This document shows positions 3,239-62,822 of a stretch of 64,000 nucleotides of DNA, piece by piece (the first letter of the stretch is position 1; every line of letters begins with the position of its first letter). The DNA is taken from the NCBI RefSeq assembly GCF_019704555.1, contig NZ_AP024745.1:8626501-8690500 (forward strand), in the 5' to 3' direction. This DNA is from Actinoplanes sp. L3-i22. GTDB lineage: Bacteria > Actinomycetota > Actinomycetes > Mycobacteriales > Micromonosporaceae. Below the pieces are notes generated by a model. It made no database searches and was not told where the DNA came from. It saw only the letters and a program-made list of their open reading frames with translations. The position numbers and the translations under genes were made by a program.

Positions 3239-4807
3239 TCAGTAACGGAAGCGGGACACCACGGCCTGGAGCTGCGCGGAGGTGGTGGTCAGCTCGTCGG
3301 CCGCCCGCCGGGTGTCGCCGACCGTGTTCGTGGTGCGCCGGGTCGCCTCGGACACGCTGGTGATGGTGGCCGCGATGTCGCCGGCGCCGCCGGCCGCCTC
3401 GGTCAGCGTCCGGTTCATCTCGTGGGTGGTCGCGGTCTGCTCCTCGACCGCCGACGCGATGGTCAGCTGCAGGCCGTTGATCCGCTCGATGATCTCGCTG
3501 ATCTCCTCGATCGCGCTGACCGCGCCGCTGGTGTCGGCCTGGATCGACTGCACCCGCTGGGAGATGTCCTCGGTCGCCTTGGCGGTCTCCTGGGCCAGGT
3601 CCTTGACCTCGCCGGCCACCACCGCGAAGCCCTTGCCCAGCTCACCGGCGCGGGCCGCCTCGATGGTCGCGTTCAGCGCGAGCAGGTTGGTCTGCTCGGC
3701 GATGCTGGTGATCACCTTGACCACGGTGGCGATCTCGGCGGACGACTCGCCGAGCCGGGCGACGATCTGGTTGGTGGCCGCGGCGGCCCGGACGGCCTGC
3801 TCGACGACCTGGGTCGCCTCCGAGGTGGAGACGCTGATGTCGCGGATCGCCGAGCCCATCTCCTGGGCGCCGGCCGAGACGAACTGCAGGTTGTGCGAGA
3901 CCGAGTCGGCGGCCGCGGAGACCGTGCCGGCCTGGACCGACGCCTCGTTGGCGGCCGCGTCGACCGCGGTGGAGACCGAGGTCAGCTGCCCGGCCGCGTG
4001 CTGCAGGGTGGTGGCGCTGCCGGCCAGCTGCACCACGTCCTCGCGGAGCCGGGCGATGCCCTTGTCCAGCGCGGTGGCCATCTGGCCGACCTCGTCCTGG
4101 CTGGTCACCCCGGAGGTGCGGGTCAGGTCGCCCTCGGCCAGGCCCTCGGCCAGCTTGGCCACCCCGCGGACGTCGTTGCGGACCCGGCCGGCCACCCGGA
4201 AGCCGATCAGCAGGCTGATCAGCACCCCGGCGGCGAGCACCAGGGAGATGGCCCAGGTCGCCCGGGTGGCCGCGGCACTCGCGTCGGCCATCTGCGCCTC
4301 GGCCAGGCTGGAGGCCCGGGCCTGCAGCGCGTTCGCGTCGTCGCCGAGGGCGCCGTGGAGCTTGTTGTAGTCGATCAGGGCCTGGTCGAGGTCGGCCTTG
4401 GTGGCCGTGCTCCGGTCGGTGCTCATGAACTTCAGGTAGGCGGCCCAGTCGGTCTGCGCCGTGGACACCGTCGCGTCCCCGGGCAGCGTCTTGCTCAGGC
4501 TGGTCAGCGCGGCGTCGACGGCCGCCTTGTTGGCCTCCATCGACTTGGTGATCGCCGCGGCCAGGGTCGGGTAGAGCTGGACCGCCGACAGGTTGCCCGA
4601 GTAGGCCTCGATGTTCTGGCTGAAGTCGGTGACCGCCGACCCGATCGCGAGCGACTGGTGCTGGGCGTCGGCCGCCTTCTGGTTCAGGTCGTGCACCCGG
4701 TAGATCGCCATGCCGCCGACGATGACGCCACCGATGGTCGCGGTCAGGGCTGCCGCGCCGATCTTCGTCCGCAGAGAACGATTGTCGAACGCCCCACTCA
4801 AGCCCAT
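3239..4807 (-). CDS. Methyl-accepting chemotaxis protein
   Basis: A 522-residue transmembrane receptor. TM1 lies at about 14-36 and is followed by an extracytoplasmic helical sensor (4HB-MCP-like, about 37-175). TM2 is at about 178-200, followed by a HAMP domain, and then the cytoplasmic signalling domain. The conserved hairpin tip [19 protein letters not shown] is followed by [16 protein letters not shown], the region that contacts CheW and CheA. No C-terminal NWETF-like tether is present. No che genes are nearby, so it must signal to a system elsewhere. A chemoreceptor fits organisms with motile spores such as Actinoplanes. The ligand cannot be predicted. Confidence 0.93.
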
Positions 4808-5490: not shown

Positions 5491-6483
5491 TCAGGCACCC
5501 CAGCGCAGTCCGGGGGTCCGCACCGGCGCGTCCCACAGGCGGATCATCTCGTCGGTGGCCTGGCACAGCGTGAGCGACATGCCGGCCATGTCCAGGCTGG
5601 TCACGTAGTTGCCGACGAGCTGCCGGGCGATCGGCACGCCGCGCTCCGCCAGGTACGCCGCGACCTCGCCGTAGACCAGGTACAGCTCGATCAGCGGGGT
5701 GCCGCCGAGCCCGTTGGCCAGCACGATCACCGGGCCGGGGAAGGACTTGGCGTCCAGGATCGCGTCCAGCGCGGAGCGGACCAGCTGCTTCGCCGGGCGC
5801 AGCTTCTCACGCCGGCGGCCCGGCTCGCCGTGGATGCCGACCCCGGCCTCGATCTCGTCGGCCGGCAGGTCGAAGCCGGGCCGGCCGGCCGCCGGGGTGG
5901 TGACCGCGGTCAACGCGTACGCGAACGAGCCGGAGGCCGCGTTGACCTCGCGCCCGAGCGCGGCGACCTCGCCGAGCTTGCCGCCCTCCTCGGCGCGCGC
6001 GCCGGCGATCTTCTCCACCAGCAGCGTCGCGCCGGTGCCGCGCCGGCCGGCGGTCCAGGTCGAGTCCTCCACCGCGACGTCGTCGTCGACCAGCACGGTC
6101 TCGACGCTGATCCCCTCGTCGGTGGCGAGCTCCGCGGCGAGCTGGAAGTTCATCACGTCGCCGGTGTAGTTCTTGACGATGTGGACCACGCCGGCGCCGC
6201 CGTCGACGGCCTTGGTCGCGGCCAGGATCTGATCCGGCACCGGGGAGGTGAAGACCTCACCGGGGCAGGCCGCGTCGAGCATGCCCGGCCCGACGAAGCC
6301 GCCGTGCAGCGGCTCGTGCCCGGACCCGCCGCCGGAGACCAGGCCCACCTTGCCGGGGCGTGGCGCGTCGGCCCGGGCGATGTACTGCTCCTCGGTGTCC
6401 ACCCGCAGCTCCGGATGGGCGGCGGCCAGCCCGGCCAGGGCCTGGGCCACCACATCGGCAGGATCGTTGATGAATTTCTTCAC
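5491..6483 (-). CDS. dhaK: Dihydroxyacetone kinase, substrate-binding subunit DhaK
   Basis: A 330-residue DhaK. It binds dihydroxyacetone covalently through a histidine hemiaminal. The expected residues are visible: GGGSGHEPLHGG (His56), NYTGDVMNF (Asp109) and AGVGIHGEPG (His218, the likely covalent His). The start is GTG 6483 with GAGGAG about 8 nt upstream. It is the first gene of dhaKL and divergent from dhaM across 66 bp that must hold both promoters. Together DhaK, DhaL and DhaM turn dihydroxyacetone into dihydroxyacetone phosphate using phosphoenolpyruvate through the PTS. Confidence 0.96.
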   Translation of the reverse strand: MKKFINDPADVVAQALAGLAAAHPELRVDTEEQYIARADAPRPGKVGLVSGGGSGHEPLHGGFVGPGMLDAACPGEVFTSPVPDQILAATKAVDGGAGVVHIVKNYTGDVMNFQLAAELATDEGISVETVLVDDDVAVEDSTWTAGRRGTGATLLVEKIAGARAEEGGKLGEVAALGREVNAASGSFAYALTAVTTPAAGRPGFDLPADEIEAGVGIHGEPGRRREKLRPAKQLVRSALDAILDAKSFPGPVIVLANGLGGTPLIELYLVYGEVAAYLAERGVPIARQLVGNYVTSLDMAGMSLTLCQATDEMIRLWDAPVRTPGLRWGA

Positions 6484-54855: not shown

Positions 54856-56340
54856 ATGACGCTCGAACGACCAGCCCGGATGTTCGACCGGGACCGGGAG
54901 TGGAAAGCCCTCAGCGCCTTCATCGACGATCCCCGCCCCGGGGCCACGCTGGGCGTGGTCTCGGGGCGCCGGCGCCAGGGCAAGACCTTCCTGCTCCGGT
55001 CGCTCTGTGAGGCCGCTGGCGGGTTCTACTTCCCCGCCGACGAGGGCATCGACCGGGAGTCCCTCAACAAGCTCGGCGCGCTTCTCGGGCAGTTCACCGG
55101 CGCGCCCGGGCCCATCGCCTTCGAGGGCTGGCATCAGGCTGTCGACGCGCTTCTCGGGCTCAGCCATGACCGGCGCATCCCGGTCGTCATCGACGAGTTC
55201 CCCTACCTCGTGCGCGCCAACCCCAGCCTGCCCTCGATCATCCAGAACGCGCTCGCCCCGCTGCGCCCGGAGCGCGACAACAGCCGGGTCGGCCTCCTGC
55301 TCTGCGGTTCCGCGATGTCCTTCATGGGCCGCCTGCTCAGCGGCAACGCTCCGCTGCGCGGACGAGCCGGTCTCGAACTGATGGTGCCCACGCTCGACCA
55401 TCGACTCGCCGCCGAGTTCTGGGGCGTCGACGATCCGGTCACGGCCCTGATGACCCACGCCGTGGTCGGTGGAACGCCGGCCTACCGGAGCGACTTCGCC
55501 CGCGACGACAAGCCGGCCGGGCCGGACGACTTCGACGCGTGGGTGATCCGGACCGTGCTGAGCCCGGCCAGCCCGCTGTTCCGCGAGGCGCGCTATCTCC
55601 TCGCGGACGAGCCGGACCTGCACGACAGCTCGCTCTACCACTCCGTGCTCGCCGCGATCGCCTCCGGCAACGCGCAGCGGGGTGCGATCGCCTCCTACAT
55701 GGGACGCAAAACGGGCGACCTGGCCCACCCGCTGACCGTGCTGGAGGACTGCGGCCTGATCGTCCGGGAGCCGGACGTCTTCAAGGACAACCGGACCACC
55801 TTCCGGATCGCCGAGCCGCTGGTCACCTTCTACCACGCGGTGATGCGGCCGATCTGGTCCGACCTGGAGTTCACCGACGACACGGCCCGGTTGTGGCGAC
55901 GCAGCCGCGCGCGTTTCGTCAGTGGTGTGCTCGGGCCGCACTTCGAGCAGGTCTGCCGCTTCTGGACCCGGCACATGGCGCCACCCGAGCTGTTCGGCGA
56001 CTATCCGAACGTGGCCGGCGCCGGCACCGTCAACGATCCGACCAACCGGACCTCGCACGAGGTGGACGTCGTGGTGTTCGGGCTCGACGACGACAACCGG
56101 CGGCCGCTGCTGGCGATCGGCGAGGTCAAGTGGGGCGAGACGATGGGCCTCGGCCACGTCGAGCGGCTGCGCCGGATCCGGGCCCTGCTGGTGGCCCAGA
56201 AACGGCTCGGCGCGGAGACCGCCCGGCTCGCCTGCTACAGCGGCACCGGCTTCGCCCCCGAGCTGGTCGAGGCGGCCGCCCGCGAACCGGAGATCGTGCT
56301 GGTCGGGCTCACGGACCTGTACCGGGCCGGGCCTACCTGA
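54856..56340 (+). CDS. AAA-type ATPase with C-terminal DUF234 nuclease-like domain
   Basis: A 494-residue protein. The N-terminal STAND/archaeal-type ATPase has Walker A VVSGRRRQGKTFLL (about 34-47), Walker B IPVVIDEFPYLV (about 104-115) and a sensor LLLCGSAMSFM. A winged helix (about 260-330, IASGNAQRGAIASYMGRKTGDLAHPLTVLEDCGLI) follows. The C-terminal DUF234 region has SHEVDVVVFG and LLAIGEVKWGE, the Asp and Glu-x-Lys of a PD-(D/E)XK fold. The family is common in archaea and patchy in bacteria, with no clear function; mobile-element or defence roles have been suggested. Its promoter carries three palindromes. The 3' end overlaps the convergent gene by 8 bp. Confidence 0.88.
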   Translation: MTLERPARMFDRDREWKALSAFIDDPRPGATLGVVSGRRRQGKTFLLRSLCEAAGGFYFPADEGIDRESLNKLGALLGQFTGAPGPIAFEGWHQAVDALLGLSHDRRIPVVIDEFPYLVRANPSLPSIIQNALAPLRPERDNSRVGLLLCGSAMSFMGRLLSGNAPLRGRAGLELMVPTLDHRLAAEFWGVDDPVTALMTHAVVGGTPAYRSDFARDDKPAGPDDFDAWVIRTVLSPASPLFREARYLLADEPDLHDSSLYHSVLAAIASGNAQRGAIASYMGRKTGDLAHPLTVLEDCGLIVREPDVFKDNRTTFRIAEPLVTFYHAVMRPIWSDLEFTDDTARLWRRSRARFVSGVLGPHFEQVCRFWTRHMAPPELFGDYPNVAGAGTVNDPTNRTSHEVDVVVFGLDDDNRRPLLAIGEVKWGETMGLGHVERLRRIRALLVAQKRLGAETARLACYSGTGFAPELVEAAAREPEIVLVGLTDLYRAGPT

Positions 56341-57652
56341 CGGTCAGGGTCACGCCGAGCGCGTTGGTCCCGGTCGACGCGTTCCAGGTGCCCGGGTTGG
56401 CCAGCCGGATGGCGTAGGCCGGCGTCGACGCCAGCCGGGCCGACGGGTCCGGCAGGGACAGCGCGATCGGGTAGGCGCCCGCCTTGCGCGGGGCGGTGAA
56501 CGTCGCCGTCAGCGTGACCGGCCGCGACGGTGACCACGTGCGGACGTCGGCGGCGACCGGCACGGCCTGGGTCGCCGGGCCGGACAGCACGAGACGTACC
56601 GGGCGGTTCTGGGCCGGGGCCGCGTACCCCTCGTTGGTGATCGTCAGGCGGACCGTGACCGGACCGCCCGGCGTGACCGAGGCCGGCAGCGTCGCCGAGA
56701 CCAGGCGAAGGCGGTAGCCGAGCCGCCGCGACGCCTCGGCGCGACCGGCCGCGCCCCACGAGTCCAGCACGTCGGTGTTGAAGGACGGGTTGAGGTACGT
56801 CCAGTGGTACGCCGCCAGTTCGGTGGCCGCCGACGCCCAGCCGGAGCGCGCCGACGGGTCGCAGGTCTCGCCGCCGACCAGCATCGACGGGCTCTGCGCG
56901 GCCATCCAGGCGAAGTCCGTGGCGGCCGGGAACGTGCCGTAGTCGTCGGTGCCGGCCAGGAAGCAGTCGTCGTGGATCCCGACGCGGGCCGCCGACGCCG
57001 CCGGGACCAGCCGCTTCCGGATCTCCGGCGTGCGCACCTGGATCAGCGCCGGCGTCGCGGCGAGCAGCGCGGTGATCACCTGACCGCGGTCCGACCAGTC
57101 CGATGTGGTGAAGTTCGTGGTGTAGTACCACTCGCCCCACCGCCCGACGAAGCCCGCCTGGACCGCGGTGATCAGGTCGGCGTTCGTGGTCAGAATCGGA
57201 CTAAGCTGCCCGATCTGCCGGACCACCCGGGCGACCGGGGCGTCCCGGTCGTCGTCGGCGCTGTAGGCGAACCGGAGGACCAGTTTCACGCCCGCCTGGC
57301 GGGCCGCGGCGAAATCCGCCGCGATCAATGCCAGATCGGCGCCGGAAATGGCGTCCAGGTCGCGGTATTTCTCCAGGTAGACGATGCGATAAACGACGCT
57401 TCGCGATTGCGACGTACGGGCGGTGGCCAGCTCACCGGCGTCGAGCGGCACCCACCCGCTGCCGTCCGCCCGCAGGTGCGTCTCCGTCCAGGAGAAGAAG
57501 CCGCGCCCCGGATTCGCGAAATCGTCACTCGACACGGCGTACGTCCGAGTCGTGGTCTTGATGGTTTTCGGGGTTGCCGCGCAAGCGGTGCCGGGCACCA
57601 GGAGAACGGCGGCCGCCGCCACGGCCGGAAGAATGCGCATGACGGCGACCAT
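56333..57652 (-). CDS. Secreted DUF4832/DUF4874 protein
   Basis: A 439-residue secreted protein with a signal peptide at about 1-27 (MRILPAVAAAAVLLVPGTACA). A TIM-barrel-like DUF4874 region (about 35-200) has NPGRGFFSWTETHLRADGSG and VVYRIVYLEKYRDL. DUF4832 (about 200-439) has GRWGEWYYTT, VGIHDDCFLAGTDDYGTF and a C-terminal beta-sandwich. This pair of domains is typical of putative glycoside-hydrolase-like surface proteins; no activity is established. ATG 57652 is used; ATG 57640 is equally possible. It is monocistronic and convergent with the ATPase gene. Confidence 0.85.
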   Translation of the reverse strand: MVAVMRILPAVAAAAVLLVPGTACAATPKTIKTTTRTYAVSSDDFANPGRGFFSWTETHLRADGSGWVPLDAGELATARTSQSRSVVYRIVYLEKYRDLDAISGADLALIAADFAAARQAGVKLVLRFAYSADDDRDAPVARVVRQIGQLSPILTTNADLITAVQAGFVGRWGEWYYTTNFTTSDWSDRGQVITALLAATPALIQVRTPEIRKRLVPAASAARVGIHDDCFLAGTDDYGTFPAATDFAWMAAQSPSMLVGGETCDPSARSGWASAATELAAYHWTYLNPSFNTDVLDSWGAAGRAEASRRLGYRLRLVSATLPASVTPGGPVTVRLTITNEGYAAPAQNRPVRLVLSGPATQAVPVAADVRTWSPSRPVTLTATFTAPRKAGAYPIALSLPDPSARLASTPAYAIRLANPGTWNASTGTNALGVTLTVR

Positions 57653-57678
57653 CGTCGCGCCGGGACCGGACCTGAGAA

Positions 57679-59145
57679 CTATCCGGGCAGCGGCAGATTC
57701 CGCAGCGGCCCTTTCCGGACCTTGTTCGAACCGGTCTTCGGCAGGTCGCCGACGACGTCCACGTAGACCGGGATCTTGTATTTCGCGAGCCGGTCCCGCA
57801 GGAAGGCCGGCACGTCCCCGGGTTCCAGCGCGGAACCCTGCCGGGGCACCACGAAGGCCCGCCCGACCTCGCCCCACCTGGGGTCCGGCACGCCGACGAC
57901 GGCCACCTCGGCCACCCCGGGGTGTTCGAAGATGGCGGCCTCGACCTCCGCCGGATACACGTTCTCGCCGCCGGAGATGTACATGTCCTTGGTCCGGTCG
58001 ACGATCCGGAAATGGCCGGACCCATCGACGACCGCCACATCCCCGGACCGGAACCAGGCGCCGTCCGCGAATGCCGCCGCGGTGGCCGGCGGGTCATTCC
58101 AGTAGCCGGGCGTCACGTTCGGCCCGCGGACCAGCACCTCACCGGGCTCACCCGGATCAGTGTCGGTCAGGTCCGGCCGGACGCACCGCACGTCCGCGAA
58201 GAACACCGGCAGCCCCGCCGAGCCGACGTGCTCGCGACTCTCCCGCGCCTCCAGGAAGGTCGCGCCGGGCGCCGTCTCGGTCATCCCGTAGCCCTGGCAG
58301 AACAGCAGGCCACGCTCCTGGTATCGGTGGATCAGCGCCTCCGGCACGGACGCGCCGCCGGTCATCAGGCTGCGCACCGAGCCGAGATCCGCGCCGGCCC
58401 AGCGCGGTGACTGGCTGAGCCCGGCGAACATCGTGGCGACGCCGAACATCCAGGTGACGCGGTGCCGCTCGATCAGGTCGAAGCAGCCGTCCACGTCCCA
58501 GCTCGGCATGATCACCGAGGTGCCGCCCTTGAGGAACGTCGGCAGCAGGCACTGGTCGAGCGCCGCGACGTGGAAGAGCGGGGCGCTGACCAGGGTCACC
58601 TCGTCGCTGGCCACGTCGACGCAGACGAGCAGGTTGTAGCAGTTCCAGATCAGGTTGCCGTGGGTGAGCATGGCGCCCTTGGGGTGCCCGGTCGTCCCCG
58701 AGGTGTAGAGGATCGCGGCGACGTCGTCCAGCCCGACCGATTCATCCGGATAAATTGGCTCTTTCTCCGGAATTTCATCGCGCGAGTAGGTCACCGGCGC
58801 GCTGACCGCCGGCATGCCCGGCGCGTGGATCAGCACCGACGCCCCGCTGTGCTGGAGCTGATACTCCAGCTCCGCGGCGGTCAGCCGGAAATTCAGCGGC
58901 ACGAAGATCGCCCCCAGCGTCCAGGCGGCGAACATCGTCTCCACGAAGGCCGGATGATTCGGCCCGAGATAGGCGACCCGGTCGCCCCGCCGCACCCCGG
59001 AGTCCCGGAGTGCGGCGGCGAGCCGGGCGATCCGGTCGTGCAGCTCGGCGTACGTCACCCGCCGCTCGCCGAAGATCAGCGCGACGCGCCCGGGCGACAT
59101 CGCCGCCCGGCGCGCCGGCCAGCAGCCCAGCCCCGCGTTGTGCAT
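57679..59145 (-). CDS. Acyl-CoA synthetase (AMP-forming), last gene of the operon
   Basis: A 488-residue ligase of the 4-coumarate/medium-chain acyl-CoA type. Motifs: ILYTSGTTGHPKGAMLTHGN (about 156-175), GYGMTETAPGATFLE, WFRSGDVAVVDGSGHF and the C-terminal DRTKDMYISGGENVYPAEVE with Lys in TGSNKVRKGPLRN. It should activate the carboxylic acid handled by the other three enzymes of the operon. It starts 11 bp after the MaoC gene stop. Upstream in-frame sequence is antisense to the MaoC gene, so ATG 59145 is used. Confidence 0.93.
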   Translation of the reverse strand: MHNAGLGCWPARRAAMSPGRVALIFGERRVTYAELHDRIARLAAALRDSGVRRGDRVAYLGPNHPAFVETMFAAWTLGAIFVPLNFRLTAAELEYQLQHSGASVLIHAPGMPAVSAPVTYSRDEIPEKEPIYPDESVGLDDVAAILYTSGTTGHPKGAMLTHGNLIWNCYNLLVCVDVASDEVTLVSAPLFHVAALDQCLLPTFLKGGTSVIMPSWDVDGCFDLIERHRVTWMFGVATMFAGLSQSPRWAGADLGSVRSLMTGGASVPEALIHRYQERGLLFCQGYGMTETAPGATFLEARESREHVGSAGLPVFFADVRCVRPDLTDTDPGEPGEVLVRGPNVTPGYWNDPPATAAAFADGAWFRSGDVAVVDGSGHFRIVDRTKDMYISGGENVYPAEVEAAIFEHPGVAEVAVVGVPDPRWGEVGRAFVVPRQGSALEPGDVPAFLRDRLAKYKIPVYVDVVGDLPKTGSNKVRKGPLRNLPLPG

Positions 59146-59156
59146 GGGGACAGGCC

Positions 59157-59612
59157 TCAGGCGTACTGGCGGTAGACGGTGCGGGCGACGCAGGCCGGCT
59201 TGTCGACGCCGTCGATCTGCACGGTGAAGTCGAACGTGCTCTGCGTGCCGCCGGGCACGTCGTCGACGCTGACCACGGTCGCCGCCAGCCGGATCTTCGA
59301 GCCGACCCGGACCGGGTGCGGGAACCGGACCTTCTCCAGCCCGTAGTTCACCCCCATCTTGACGCCCTCGACCTTGAGGAGATCCCCGAAGAGCGGGATG
59401 ACCAGCGACAACGTCAGGTAGCCGTGCGCGATCGGGCCGCCGAACGGGCCGCCCTTGGCGCGCTCGGGGTCCACGTGGATCCACTGGTGGTCGCCGGTCG
59501 CGTCGGCGAACGTGTTCACCCGCTCCTGGGTGATCTCCAGCCACTCGCTGGCACCGAGGTCCTTGCCCGCGAGGGCCTTGAGCTCGTCGAGCCCGTTCAC
59601 CACGGTCGTCAT
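59157..59612 (-). CDS. MaoC-type (R)-enoyl-CoA hydratase, HtdZ-like
   Basis: A 151-residue single-hotdog hydratase, the same length as M. tuberculosis HtdZ (Rv0130). The hydratase-2 motif is FADATGDHQWIHVDPERAKGG (Asp and His catalytic, about 35-55), followed by GPIAHGYLTLSL and NYGLEKVRFPHPVRVG. It should add water to trans-2-enoyl-CoA to give the R-3-hydroxy form. Its ATG overlaps the stop of the amidohydrolase gene (ATGA, 59609-59612), and the FadD gene follows 11 bp later. GAGAGG lies upstream. Confidence 0.93.
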   Translation of the reverse strand: MTTVVNGLDELKALAGKDLGASEWLEITQERVNTFADATGDHQWIHVDPERAKGGPFGGPIAHGYLTLSLVIPLFGDLLKVEGVKMGVNYGLEKVRFPHPVRVGSKIRLAATVVSVDDVPGGTQSTFDFTVQIDGVDKPACVARTVYRQYA

Positions 59613-60484
59613 TTCGTGTCCTCTCCAAAAAACAGACGGGCGGCATTCAACTTCAAGATCTTTTCCCGTACGGCGTCCTTCAGCTCCAGCTTCGCGAAGT
59701 CCGCCAGCCAGCGATCCGGGGTGATCACCGGATAGTCCGAGCCGAACAGCACCTTGTCCTGCAGCAGACTGTTCGCGTACCGGACGAGCTGCGGCGGGAA
59801 GTACTTCGGCGACCAGCCGGACAGGTCGATGTACACGTGCTCCTTGTGCGTGGCGACGGCCAGCGCCTCGTCCTGCCACGGGAACGACGGGTGGGCCAGG
59901 ATGACCCGCAGGTCGGGGAAGTCCACGGCCACGTCGTCGACCAGCATCGGGTTCGAGTACTTCAGCCGGATCCCGCCGCCGCCGCGCACGTTCGCGCCGA
60001 TCCCGGTCTGCCCGGTGTGGAACAGCGCGACCGCGCCCAGCTCCTGGATCGCCTCGTAGAGCGGGTAGGCCAGCCGGTCGTCCGGCGCGAAGCCCTGGAT
60101 GCTGGGGTGGAACTTGAAGCCGCGGACGCCGTACCCGGTGACCAGGCGGTGCGCCTCGCGGACGCCGGCCCGGCCCTTGTGCGGGTCGATGCTGGCGAAC
60201 GGGATCAGCGTGTCCGGATGCGCCGCGCAGCTCTCCGCGATCTCCTCGTTGGCGATCCGCGGGTGGCCGGTGGCGTGCTCGGCGTCGACGGTGAAGACGA
60301 CGGCGGCCATCTTGCGCTCGCGGTAGTAGTCGGCCATCTCGTCGATGGTCGGCTGCCGATGGCCGTGCGCCTTGAAGTAGTCCGCTGACGCTCCGAGCAG
60401 CTCCGGGCTCAGCGAGCTGTGCCCGTCCTTGCTCACCTCGGCGTGCGTGTGCACGTCGATCGCGGTCAGTTGCGAGGTGTCCAT
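59609..60484 (-). CDS. Amidohydrolase-family metal enzyme (ACMSD-like)
   Basis: A 291-residue TIM-barrel metal hydrolase of the amidohydrolase_2 group. Metal-binding HxH is in AIDVHTHAEV (about 9-18). Further likely ligands are His in GFKFHPSIQG, His in ALFHTGQTG, His in VILAHPSFPW and Asp in FGSDYPVITP. Relatives include ACMS decarboxylase and several C-C bond hydrolases, so decarboxylation or hydrolytic ring or chain cleavage of a CoA-derived or free intermediate is plausible. It lies between SDR (2 bp gap) and MaoC (4 bp overlap). Confidence 0.9.
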   Translation of the reverse strand: MDTSQLTAIDVHTHAEVSKDGHSSLSPELLGASADYFKAHGHRQPTIDEMADYYRERKMAAVVFTVDAEHATGHPRIANEEIAESCAAHPDTLIPFASIDPHKGRAGVREAHRLVTGYGVRGFKFHPSIQGFAPDDRLAYPLYEAIQELGAVALFHTGQTGIGANVRGGGGIRLKYSNPMLVDDVAVDFPDLRVILAHPSFPWQDEALAVATHKEHVYIDLSGWSPKYFPPQLVRYANSLLQDKVLFGSDYPVITPDRWLADFAKLELKDAVREKILKLNAARLFFGEDTK

Positions 60485-60486
60485 GA

Positions 60487-61374
60487 TCAGTTGCCCGGGG
60501 CCGCGGGGGCCGGGATGCCGTAGGTCTCCGCTCGGAAATTCCAGGACCCGGCGATGTCATCGGCCGGCCATCCACCCTCCCGGTAGGCGATCTCCTTCTC
60601 GGCCGGGTGCGACCAGAGCGCCAGCTTGTCGCCGCCGATCCCGATCGCCTGCCCGGTGATGGCCTTCGAGGCGTCCGAGGCCAGGAACGTGATCAGCCCG
60701 GTGACGTCGTCCACGGTCCCGAGGCCCTCGTCATGGCGCAGCCAGGCCGGATAGGGCTGCCCGGTGCGCTCGGCCTCCTCGATCACCGGCGCGAAGGCCG
60801 GGATCGTCTTGGTCATCTCGGTCGCCGCGATCGGCACCACGGCGTTCACCGTGATCTCGCTGCGGGCCAGCTCGAGCGCCCAGGTGCGGGCCATCGCCGC
60901 GATCCCGGCCTTGGCCGCCGCGTAGTTCGTCTGCCCGAAGTTCCCACGCTGGCCGGCCGGGGAAGCGATCAGGATGATCCGCCCGCCGCCGCCCTGCTCC
61001 CGCATCCGGATCGCGGCGGCCCGGGCACACGTGAACGTGCCCCGCAGGTGCGTCCGGATCACCGCGTCGAAGTCGTCGTCGGTCATCTTCCACAGCACCC
61101 GGTCGCGCAGAATGCCGGCGTTGGTGATCAGCACGTCGAGCCGGCCGAACGCCTCGACCGCGGCCGCGACCAGCTGCTCCGCGCTCGCGGTGTCACCCAC
61201 CGCCGCCGCGACCCCGACGGATCCGGGGACCTGCGCCACCGCCGCGTCGACCGCGGCCCGGTCCACGTCGTTGACCACGACCGACGCGCCGGCCGCGGCG
61301 AGCGCCCTGGCATATGCGAGGCCGAGTCCCCGGCCGCTGCCGGTGACGACGGCGACCTTGCCGCTCAGATCCAT
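60487..61374 (-). CDS. Short-chain dehydrogenase, (R)-3-hydroxyacyl-CoA dehydrogenase type
   Basis: A 295-residue SDR. NAD motif VTGSGRGLGLAYARAL (about 10-25), NDVD, NAG, catalytic Ser in LIASPAGQRG and YAAAK (Tyr and Lys). The long C-terminus (WSHPAEKEIAYREGGWPADDIAG) and the overall form resemble the dehydrogenase unit of peroxisomal multifunctional enzyme 2, which is R-specific. This fits the R-specific MaoC hydratase in the same operon. It is the first gene, divergent from the MarR gene, with GAGAGG before ATG 61374. Confidence 0.92.
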   Translation of the reverse strand: MDLSGKVAVVTGSGRGLGLAYARALAAAGASVVVNDVDRAAVDAAVAQVPGSVGVAAAVGDTASAEQLVAAAVEAFGRLDVLITNAGILRDRVLWKMTDDDFDAVIRTHLRGTFTCARAAAIRMREQGGGGRIILIASPAGQRGNFGQTNYAAAKAGIAAMARTWALELARSEITVNAVVPIAATEMTKTIPAFAPVIEEAERTGQPYPAWLRHDEGLGTVDDVTGLITFLASDASKAITGQAIGIGGDKLALWSHPAEKEIAYREGGWPADDIAGSWNFRAETYGIPAPAAPGN

Positions 61375-61459
61375 GTGTTTCAACCTCTCACGAGAACGGT
61401 GGGTGGCGCGACGGGTTCGGGCCCCGCAGCCCGTCGAACCCGGCGCGCCACCCCCGATT

Positions 61460-61474
61460 AACAGGATTCCTGTT
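61460..61474. promoter_or_regulatory. Perfect palindrome AACAGGATTCCTGTT, likely MarR operator
   Basis: Seven-bp arms around a central T, located between the divergent SDR operon and MarR gene. A second, imperfect copy with CAGGTTTCCTG at its core lies at 61495-61509, 35 bp centre to centre. Typical size and position for MarR-family sites. Confidence 0.8.
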
Positions 61475-61494
61475 GATCCCGAGTCTTGAGGATG

Positions 61495-61509
61495 ATCAGG
61501 TTTCCTGTC
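61495..61509. promoter_or_regulatory. Second copy of the MarR-type palindrome (imperfect)
   Basis: ATCAGGTTTCCTGTC matches the perfect site at 61460 in 12 of 15 positions, including the full CAGG and CCTGT half-site cores. A -10-like TAATGT (61517-61522) for the MarR gene follows, so binding here would repress the regulator itself. Confidence 0.65.
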
Positions 61510-61554
61510 AATGGGGTAATGTCGCAGCATCTTCACGACCGTTCGGAGGACCCC

Positions 61555-61965
61555 ATGCCGTCGCTGCTCTACCTGGTCAAACAGCTCGAGCTGGCAGTCC
61601 GCGCCCGCCTGGACGAGGTGGTCCGCGGGCACGGGATCACGGCGCTGCAGTACACGGCACTGACCGTCCTGGAACGGCACGACGGCCTGTCCGCGGCCCA
61701 GTTGGCCCGCGACTCGTTCGTGACGGCCCAGTCCATCGCGGACATGGTCCGCGCCCTGGAGAGCCGCGGGCTGATCCGCCGCGAACGCAACACCGGCAAC
61801 CGGCGCGAGCTGCTGATCCACCTGACCCCGGAGGGGCGCGGACTGCTGGCGACGGTGGCCGGGCCGGTCCAGGAGCTGGAGGCCCGGATGACGGCCAAGT
61901 TGACCGGCGCCCAGGCCGACGAGCTCCGGCAGAGCCTGGTCACCGCCTGGCAGTCCCTCTCCTGA
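61555..61965 (+). CDS. MarR-family transcriptional regulator
   Basis: A 136-residue regulator of normal MarR length. The winged helix covers about 25-95: GITALQYTALTVLERHDGLSAAQLARDSFVTAQSIADMVRALESRGLIRRERNTGNRRELLIHLTPEG, with the wing Asp/Arg region NRRE. Many MarR repressors next to CoA-ligase operons respond to the CoA-thioester product. It is divergent from the SDR-amidohydrolase-MaoC-FadD operon with the two palindromes between. GGAGGA lies 5 nt before ATG 61555. Confidence 0.93.
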   Translation: MPSLLYLVKQLELAVRARLDEVVRGHGITALQYTALTVLERHDGLSAAQLARDSFVTAQSIADMVRALESRGLIRRERNTGNRRELLIHLTPEGRGLLATVAGPVQELEARMTAKLTGAQADELRQSLVTAWQSLS

Positions 61966-62822
61966 GAAGACCCCGCCCGGCCCCGCCGCCCGGCCCCGCC
62001 GCCCGGCCCCGCCGCCCCGCCCGGCCCCGCCGCCCCGCCCGGCCCCGCCGCCCGGCCCCGCCGCCCCGCCCGGCCCCGCCGCCCCGCCCGGCCCCGCCGC
62101 CCCAAGCGCGGCACGAGGCAGCCCCGGCCCAACGCGGCCCGGCGCAGCGCGACATGGCCCGGCGCGGACCCGGCCCAGCCCGGGCCGAAGCAGCGCGGCA
62201 TGGCCCGGCCCGGCACAGCCTGGCCCAGCGCGGCCAGCCCGACCCGACCCCACCCGGCCCGACCCGGCCCGGCATGGCCCGGCATGGCCCGGCATGGCCC
62301 GGCATGGCCCGGCATGGCCCGGCATGGCGCAGCGCGGCCAGCCCGACCCCACCCGGCCCGACCCGGCCCGGCCCGGCATGGCCCGGCCCGGCCCGGCATG
62401 GCCCGGCATGGCCCGGCATGGCCCGGCATGGCGCAGCGCGGCCAGCCCAGCGCGGCCCAGCGCGGCCCAGCGCGGCCCAGCCCCACCCGGCCCGGCATGG
62501 CCCGGCATGGCCCGGCGCGGGGCGGCCCGGCGCGGGGCGGCGCGGGGCGGGGCGGCGCGGGGCGGCGCGGGGCGGGGCGGCGCGGGGCGGGGCGGCGCGG
62601 GGCGGGGCGGCGCGGGGCGGGGCGGCGCGGGGCGGGGCGGCGCGGGGCGGGGCGGCGCGGGGCGGGGCGGCGCGGGGCGGGGCGGACCCCGCCCACCCAG
62701 GGGGCTGACCGCCTCCGGGATCGCTGGGGGCGCGATCGCCACCCCCGATCCTGCCGCAAATCCGCAAGATCACGCCGGCCCCCTGTGGATAACCGCCCAG
62801 TGTGGATAACCCCGGCGGCCCC
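61966..62822. repeat. GC-only minisatellite block between MarR and amidase genes
   Basis: About 700 bp of this 857-bp gap are tandem repeats with almost no A or T. Block A (61972-62105) has C-rich units such as CGCCCGGCCCCGC. Block B (62120-62520) has GGCATGGCCC decamers, six in a row at 62271-62330, in longer repeats of about 100 bp that begin AGCGCGGCCAGCCC (62227 and 62331). Block C (62541-62685) has nine full 15-bp units CGCGGGGCGGGGCGG and one 10-bp variant. The long open frames through it on both strands reflect absence of stop codons and are not genes. Confidence 0.9.

Follow-up and report, generated by a model that had tools for sequence, protein, structure and literature searches.

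A MarR-linked four-gene operon of Actinoplanes sp. L3-i22 probably encodes coenzyme A-dependent beta-oxidative deacetylation of p-hydroxycinnamates

Gene layout and enzyme families

The window analysed here is a stretch of 64,000 nucleotides from Actinoplanes sp. L3-i22 (contig NZ_AP024745.1, positions 8,626,501 to 8,690,500), whose genome is one 12.0-Mb contig. At 57679-61965 of the window, four tightly packed genes for a short-chain dehydrogenase/reductase (SDR), an amidohydrolase, a MaoC-type enoyl-coenzyme A (CoA) hydratase and an acyl-CoA ligase stand divergent from a gene for a MarR-family protein. The four genes lie in this order on the minus strand (60487-61374, 59609-60484, 59157-59612 and 57679-59145, respectively). 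A 2-bp gap separates the SDR and amidohydrolase genes, the amidohydrolase and MaoC genes share an ATGA overlap, and 11 bp separate MaoC from the ligase. The MarR gene occupies 61555-61965 of the plus strand, with alternative starts possible at 61519 or 61486. An original prediction, made from the sequence alone, had described this close spacing and the divergent MarR gene, and the coordinates and Pfam assignments agree with it. The intergenic region between the MarR and SDR genes contains two operator-like CAGG-N3-CCTG palindromes, AACAGG-N3-CCTGTT at 61460-61474 and, 35 bp from it, ATCAGG-N3-CCTGTC at 61495-61509.

All five proteins score above the Pfam cut-offs (SDR, PF13561/PF00106; amidohydrolase, PF04909; MaoC, PF01575; ligase, PF00501 and PF13193; MarR, PF01047). 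The enzyme motifs, which we take to be metal ligands or family signatures, are intact: TGSGRGLG and YAAAK in the SDR, DATGDHQWIHVD in MaoC, YTSGTTGHPKG in the ligase, and HTH (H12 and H14), H156, H198 and D250 in the amidohydrolase, all of the latter invariant in 5/5 aligned amidohydrolases. Comparison of the SDR with the curated NCBIfam models ranked FabG best, with the 25 models shown of 220 all below their cut-offs. The best solved relatives of the ligase are 8weu (Fatty-acyl-CoA synthase) and 8wev (Feruloyl-CoA Synthetase) at 564 bits over residues 1-482, followed by FadD13 at 296 bits, suggesting an enzyme of the feruloyl/p-coumaroyl-CoA synthetase type. Ten further ligase matches are present in the genome (E <= 1e-40), the best of them 40% identical.

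The amidohydrolase was compared with solved structures and with sequence databases. Its nearest solved structure is the uncharacterised protein 3irs (E 1.1e-21), and characterised decarboxylases of PF04909 match only at E 3.8e-6 or weaker. An ACMSD-type decarboxylase identity was thus rejected, and the label "ACMSD-like" given in the original prediction is a loose one. In the database search, 8000 candidates were scored and the best 120 listed, at least 12 of which are annotated in NCBI or UniRef as 4-hydroxyphenyl-beta-ketoacyl-CoA hydrolase. The other named relatives among the matches listed are mostly called "amidohydrolase" or TIM-barrel hydrolase. The closest protein among these matches is from Actinoplanes sp. 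HUAS TT8 (95% identity), and the nearest named relatives are mostly from Actinoplanes.

Comparison with the cou locus and conservation of the gene order

In Rhodococcus jostii RHA1, the last step of the cou pathway is catalysed by CouO, an enzyme of the amidohydrolase superfamily whose product is the free aromatic acid; the genes couR and couN are transcribed divergently and have one operator in the region that separates them, and the CouR box reads ATTGA-N5-TCAAT (PMC4737184). Five aligned amidohydrolases, the first of them from Rhodococcus, served as the query for a scan of named genomes, in which the top locus was that of Rhodococcus wratislaviensis (L035). Since RHA1 falls outside the best 80 loci, as does Streptomyces scabies, L035 stands in for RHA1. 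The MarR protein of L035 is identical to crystallised CouR (5cyv) at 143 of 146 residues (298 bits, covering the full 146 residues). L035 also contains an exact ATTGA-N5-TCAAT box; with one mismatch allowed, a match to the box also occurred in 14 of 200 shuffles of this locus. The MarR gene of L035 faces SDR-amidohydrolase-MaoC, which is consistent with the published divergent couR/couN layout.

The window has the same divergent MarR gene and the same SDR-amidohydrolase-MaoC order, and its enzymes are 56-63% identical to those of L035 (SDR, 63%; amidohydrolase, 63% over 281 residues; MaoC, 56%). In contrast to the cou system, the ligase gene follows straight after MaoC in the window. The features of the cou pathway and of its counterpart phd in Corynebacterium glutamicum thus recur here: a hydratase (PF01575) and a dehydrogenase (PF13561) stand beside a ligase that by sequence appears to be of the hydroxycinnamate type, and a putative CouO-type amidohydrolase, similar to that of L035 and to the annotated relatives, takes the place of a thiolase. 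A separate observation on CouR boxes comes from Gordonia rhizosphera (L039), in which exact CouR-type boxes at 3537 and 5998 shortly precede a ligase-like gene (46%, at 3605) and an SDR gene (at 6063), respectively. The arrangement suggests a CouR-type regulon served by two promoters.

The genome-context search for the four-gene set that the original prediction had proposed recovered the set repeatedly. Matches to the amidohydrolase (E <= 1e-30) were found in 41/67 genomes of the same genus, its own included, and the four-gene order of the window is kept in 28/30 fetched same-genus loci, again counting its own, indicating that the arrangement is not due to chance. The two remaining loci (L028 and L032) contain only the amidohydrolase. 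Genes were counted at identities of at least 50% for SDR, amidohydrolase and MaoC, at least 44% for the ligase and at least 45% for MarR. By this measure a divergent MarR gene accompanies 22 of the 28 same-genus loci with four genes, within flanks of about 1.5 kb, beyond which MarR genes farther out would escape. The named loci comprise the best 80 of 575 confirmed relatives. SDR, amidohydrolase and MaoC occur together in 39 of these 80 loci, 33 of which also have the ligase and 6 the MarR gene; the order SDR-amidohydrolase-ligase-MaoC is found in 14.

Plasmid records were represented by 40 of 105, and four were examined, including two of the four from Rhodococcus. On the Rhodococcus sp. JS3073 plasmid (L003, 5902-8870), a CouO-type hydrolase gene lies directly behind an acyl-CoA synthetase gene and no SDR or MaoC match is present, an arrangement consistent with hpeE-hpeF of acetovanillone catabolism. 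A Rhodococcus opacus plasmid (L001, 7986-12006) has the four families in the order amidohydrolase-ligase-SDR-MaoC, followed by a GntR gene; its ligase is distantly related (29%). This is perhaps a variant for another substrate.

Proposed assignment to p-hydroxycinnamate catabolism

The sequence comparisons suggest, with a probability of about 0.9, that the products of the operon carry out a CoA-dependent beta-oxidative deacetylation, with the p-hydroxycinnamates p-coumarate, ferulate and caffeate as substrates. The ligase would convert the hydroxycinnamate to its cinnamoyl-CoA thioester, and MaoC would add water to the side-chain double bond that is already present. The SDR would then oxidise the 3-hydroxyl of the 3-hydroxy-3-aryl-propanoyl-CoA to the ketone, and the CouO-type amidohydrolase would hydrolyse the resulting beta-ketoacyl-CoA to free hydroxybenzoate and acetyl-CoA. 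No acyl-CoA dehydrogenase would be needed because a hydroxycinnamate carries its 2,3 double bond from the start, and the CouO-type amidohydrolase would stand in for a thiolase and release the free acid, as in the published pathway. The logic of the original prediction fits this route: acid activation by the ligase, hydration by MaoC, oxidation by the SDR and an amidohydrolase in place of a thiolase. It had allowed cleavage by decarboxylation or hydrolysis; hydrolysis agrees with a CouO-type enzyme, and decarboxylation is not needed. Its further view that the set belongs to no pathway named so far is contradicted by cou (PMC4737184) and phd (PMC5479773). The operon is essentially ordinary, a further instance of a known pathway, and the claim of novelty fails because the operon matches a characterised route.

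Genes for the downstream steps are present in the same genome. PcaH is encoded at 2881185-2881838 (351.9 bits, over its cut-off), and about 1 kb away, at 2879111-2880268, lies the gene of a PobA-like protein that covers positions 1-389 of the 390 of its model with 480.6 bits, under the curated 538.7. A VanA_C protein is encoded at 8779323, about 89 kb past the window end (98.6 bits, over its cut-off). These genes are consistent with a conversion of 4-hydroxybenzoate and vanillate to protocatechuate, in which the PobA-like or VanA-like enzyme would act on the released acid and the protocatechuate would enter the beta-ketoadipate pathway.

Published systems support the assignment by analogy. For C. 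glutamicum, the four enzymes are given as a ligase (PhdA), a hydratase (PhdE), a 3-hydroxyacyl-CoA dehydrogenase (PhdB) and a 3-oxoacyl-CoA ketohydrolase (PhdC) (PMC5479773), and PhdR as the MarR-type regulator of phd that is released by p-coumaroyl-CoA (PMC7593625); a review gives the same phd-type route (PMC10765951). The likeness to the window extends to all four reactions and to a repressor of the MarR type but is one of description only, as is that between PhdE, termed an enoyl-CoA hydratase, and the window MaoC. In Streptomyces scabies, four proteins with consecutive tags, SCAB_15591 (MaoC family dehydratase, also termed enoyl-CoA hydratase), SCAB_15601 (feruloyl-CoA synthetase), SCAB_15611 (amidohydrolase) and SCAB_15621 (dehydrogenase/reductase), were detected only with ferulic acid (PMC6904314). 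Quantitative reverse transcription PCR showed SCAB_15601 and SCAB_15591 to be more than 100-fold up with ferulic acid and 300-fold with coumaric acid, and the available account assigns ferulate conversion only to these two (PMC6904314). The four families are those of the window, whereas the tag order corresponds to SDR-amidohydrolase-ligase-MaoC; this comparison is by annotation. By analogy, the S. scabies proteomics and transcript data are the nearest proxy for an induction by p-coumarate or ferulate.

Several observations weigh against the assignment. Under the identity cut-offs used, the amidohydrolase is the sole passing gene of the five in 23 of the best 80 named loci, so it is not exclusive to the operon. 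The original prediction had held that its case would fail if the homologues were scattered singly among related genomes; this applies only in part, to the amidohydrolase in these 23 loci. The lack of exclusivity agrees with the occurrence of the same amidohydrolase type in other routes, since HpeF of acetovanillone catabolism in strain GD02 is reported to be 95% identical to CouO (PMC9618137). HpeF is likewise a CouO-type hydrolase, but in the hpeE-hpeF route the beta-keto acid is made through a carboxylase and a phosphatase rather than a hydratase and an SDR (PMC9618137). In addition, the 4-hydroxyphenyl-beta-ketoacyl-CoA hydrolase names borne by relatives of the amidohydrolase are annotations. 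L035 with its 7-kb flanks gave no ligase-like match (at half coverage and E 1e-6), placing CouL outside the comparison. No transporter was found among the four neighbouring open reading frames scanned, the search being confined to these. Finally, the window MarR is not close to CouR: a BLASTP alignment with the orthologue from L035 covers 103 residues at 26% identity.

The same chemistry may instead serve another main substrate, such as longer or differently substituted aryl-alkenoic acids (piperic acid, methylenedioxycinnamate) or 2-enoic fatty acids. This is unlikely. The relevant precedent comes from Rhodococcus ruber No. 14, in which four contiguous genes are reported to resemble those of the hydroxycinnamate enzymes; their products PipU, PipV, PipW and PipX were purified and convert piperic to piperonylic acid in vitro, all four being required (PMC12753220). 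The likeness is by description only, and the physiological substrate differs in having a C5 side chain. The Pip enzymes also accept ferulate, crotonate and trans-2-dodecenoate, which speaks for this alternative. However, ferulate was the best of five substrates, at 270% of the activity with piperic acid, and PipX and PipV products as such escaped detection (PMC12753220). A feruloyl-CoA synthetase among the closest solved structures of the window ligase also argues against another main substrate. It is highly improbable that the ligase feeds a hydratase-aldolase with release of vanillin in the non-beta-oxidative Fcs/Ech route. That route, an alternative described in C. glutamicum, also begins with a feruloyl-CoA synthetase, but in its published form (Fcs/Ech/Vdh) it makes no use of the MaoC hydratase, SDR and CouO-type hydrolase that the operon contains (PMC5479773). 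Neither an Ech hydratase/aldolase nor a vanillin dehydrogenase is among the four operon genes, to which this search was limited. A genuinely new route of ring or chain cleavage, still unassigned and based on an ACMSD-like decarboxylase, has a very small chance, since the membership in PF04909 and the weak decarboxylase matches that speak for it are far outweighed by the 63% identity to a cou-type locus and the common gene order.

The surroundings of the operon are as follows. Downstream of the ligase gene and likewise on the minus strand, 56333-57661 encodes a protein with DUF4874 and DUF4832 and no apparent link to the pathway. Between the MarR gene and an Amidase-family gene (PF01425; 62823-64000, minus strand, the frame being open at the right end of the window and continuing past it) lie tandem repeats of very high G+C content that span about 700 bp (61971-62685), with listed periods of 5 to 104 bp. 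Long open frames cover these repeats on both strands and are probably composition artefacts.

The regulator and the paired palindromes

The regulatory part differs from that of cou in protein and in palindrome. In the alignment of the window MarR with the CouR orthologue, Thr29 and Leu31 stand opposite Arg36 and Arg38 of CouR, and neither arginine is present; this absence is only moderately firm because the alignment starts two residues before Arg36. Comparison with NCBIfam returned 11 models for the window MarR, all below cut-off, with HpaR the best (58.1 vs 121.2 bits). Conserved cou clusters encode MarR proteins that share 19-37% identity and keep one or both arginines, with Lys for Arg36 in two of them (PMC4737184). 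However, the cou MarR proteins of R. palustris and Sphingobium SYK-6 have neither arginine, yet hydroxycinnamoyl-CoA abolishes their DNA binding (PMC4737184). The divergence of the window MarR is thus compatible with the same ligand.

Reading of the sequence at 61370-61570 showed no ATTGA-N5-TCAAT box; the CAGG-N3-CCTG pair is present there. The pair was counted in 28 divergent loci, namely 22 of L005-L034 and 6 of L035-L114 (five Streptomyces and one Actinoplanes). At least one site occurs in 28/28 and two sites in 27/28, compared with expectations of 0.12 and 0.000 loci in mononucleotide-shuffled sequence. As the 28 loci are related, the count shows conservation and not 28 independent events. 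In the window alone, allowing up to two mismatches gives 2 matches to the pattern where 0.81 would be expected, and at least 2 were obtained in 17 of 100 shuffles. Exact ACAGG-N3-CCTGT occurs at two places in the genome (this locus and 1831745), and the reversed-pattern control at four, so that the motif alone defines no regulon. Taken by itself within the window or across the genome, the palindrome motif is no rarer than expected by chance, and only its conservation speaks for it. Most likely, the divergent MarR binds the two palindromes and represses transcription on either side; hydroxycinnamoyl-CoA or a related aromatic would probably release it.

The regulator is a somewhat new part of an otherwise known system. 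The odds are about even that Actinoplanes and several Streptomyces have a separate MarR lineage, lacking both CouR arginines, that binds the paired CAGG-N3-CCTG sites and senses its ligand otherwise than by the CoA-phosphate occlusion of CouR. If so, its ligand would be hydroxycinnamoyl-CoA or a free phenolic. No description of this lineage was found in the literature searched, for which Actinoplanes and MarR were rarely combined.

The assignment to p-hydroxycinnamate deacetylation removes a claimed unknown pathway and gives the genes a likely role in the use of lignin- and plant-derived phenolic acids. Many such genes carry only the label "amidohydrolase family protein". The one testable novelty at the locus is the regulator with its paired palindromes.

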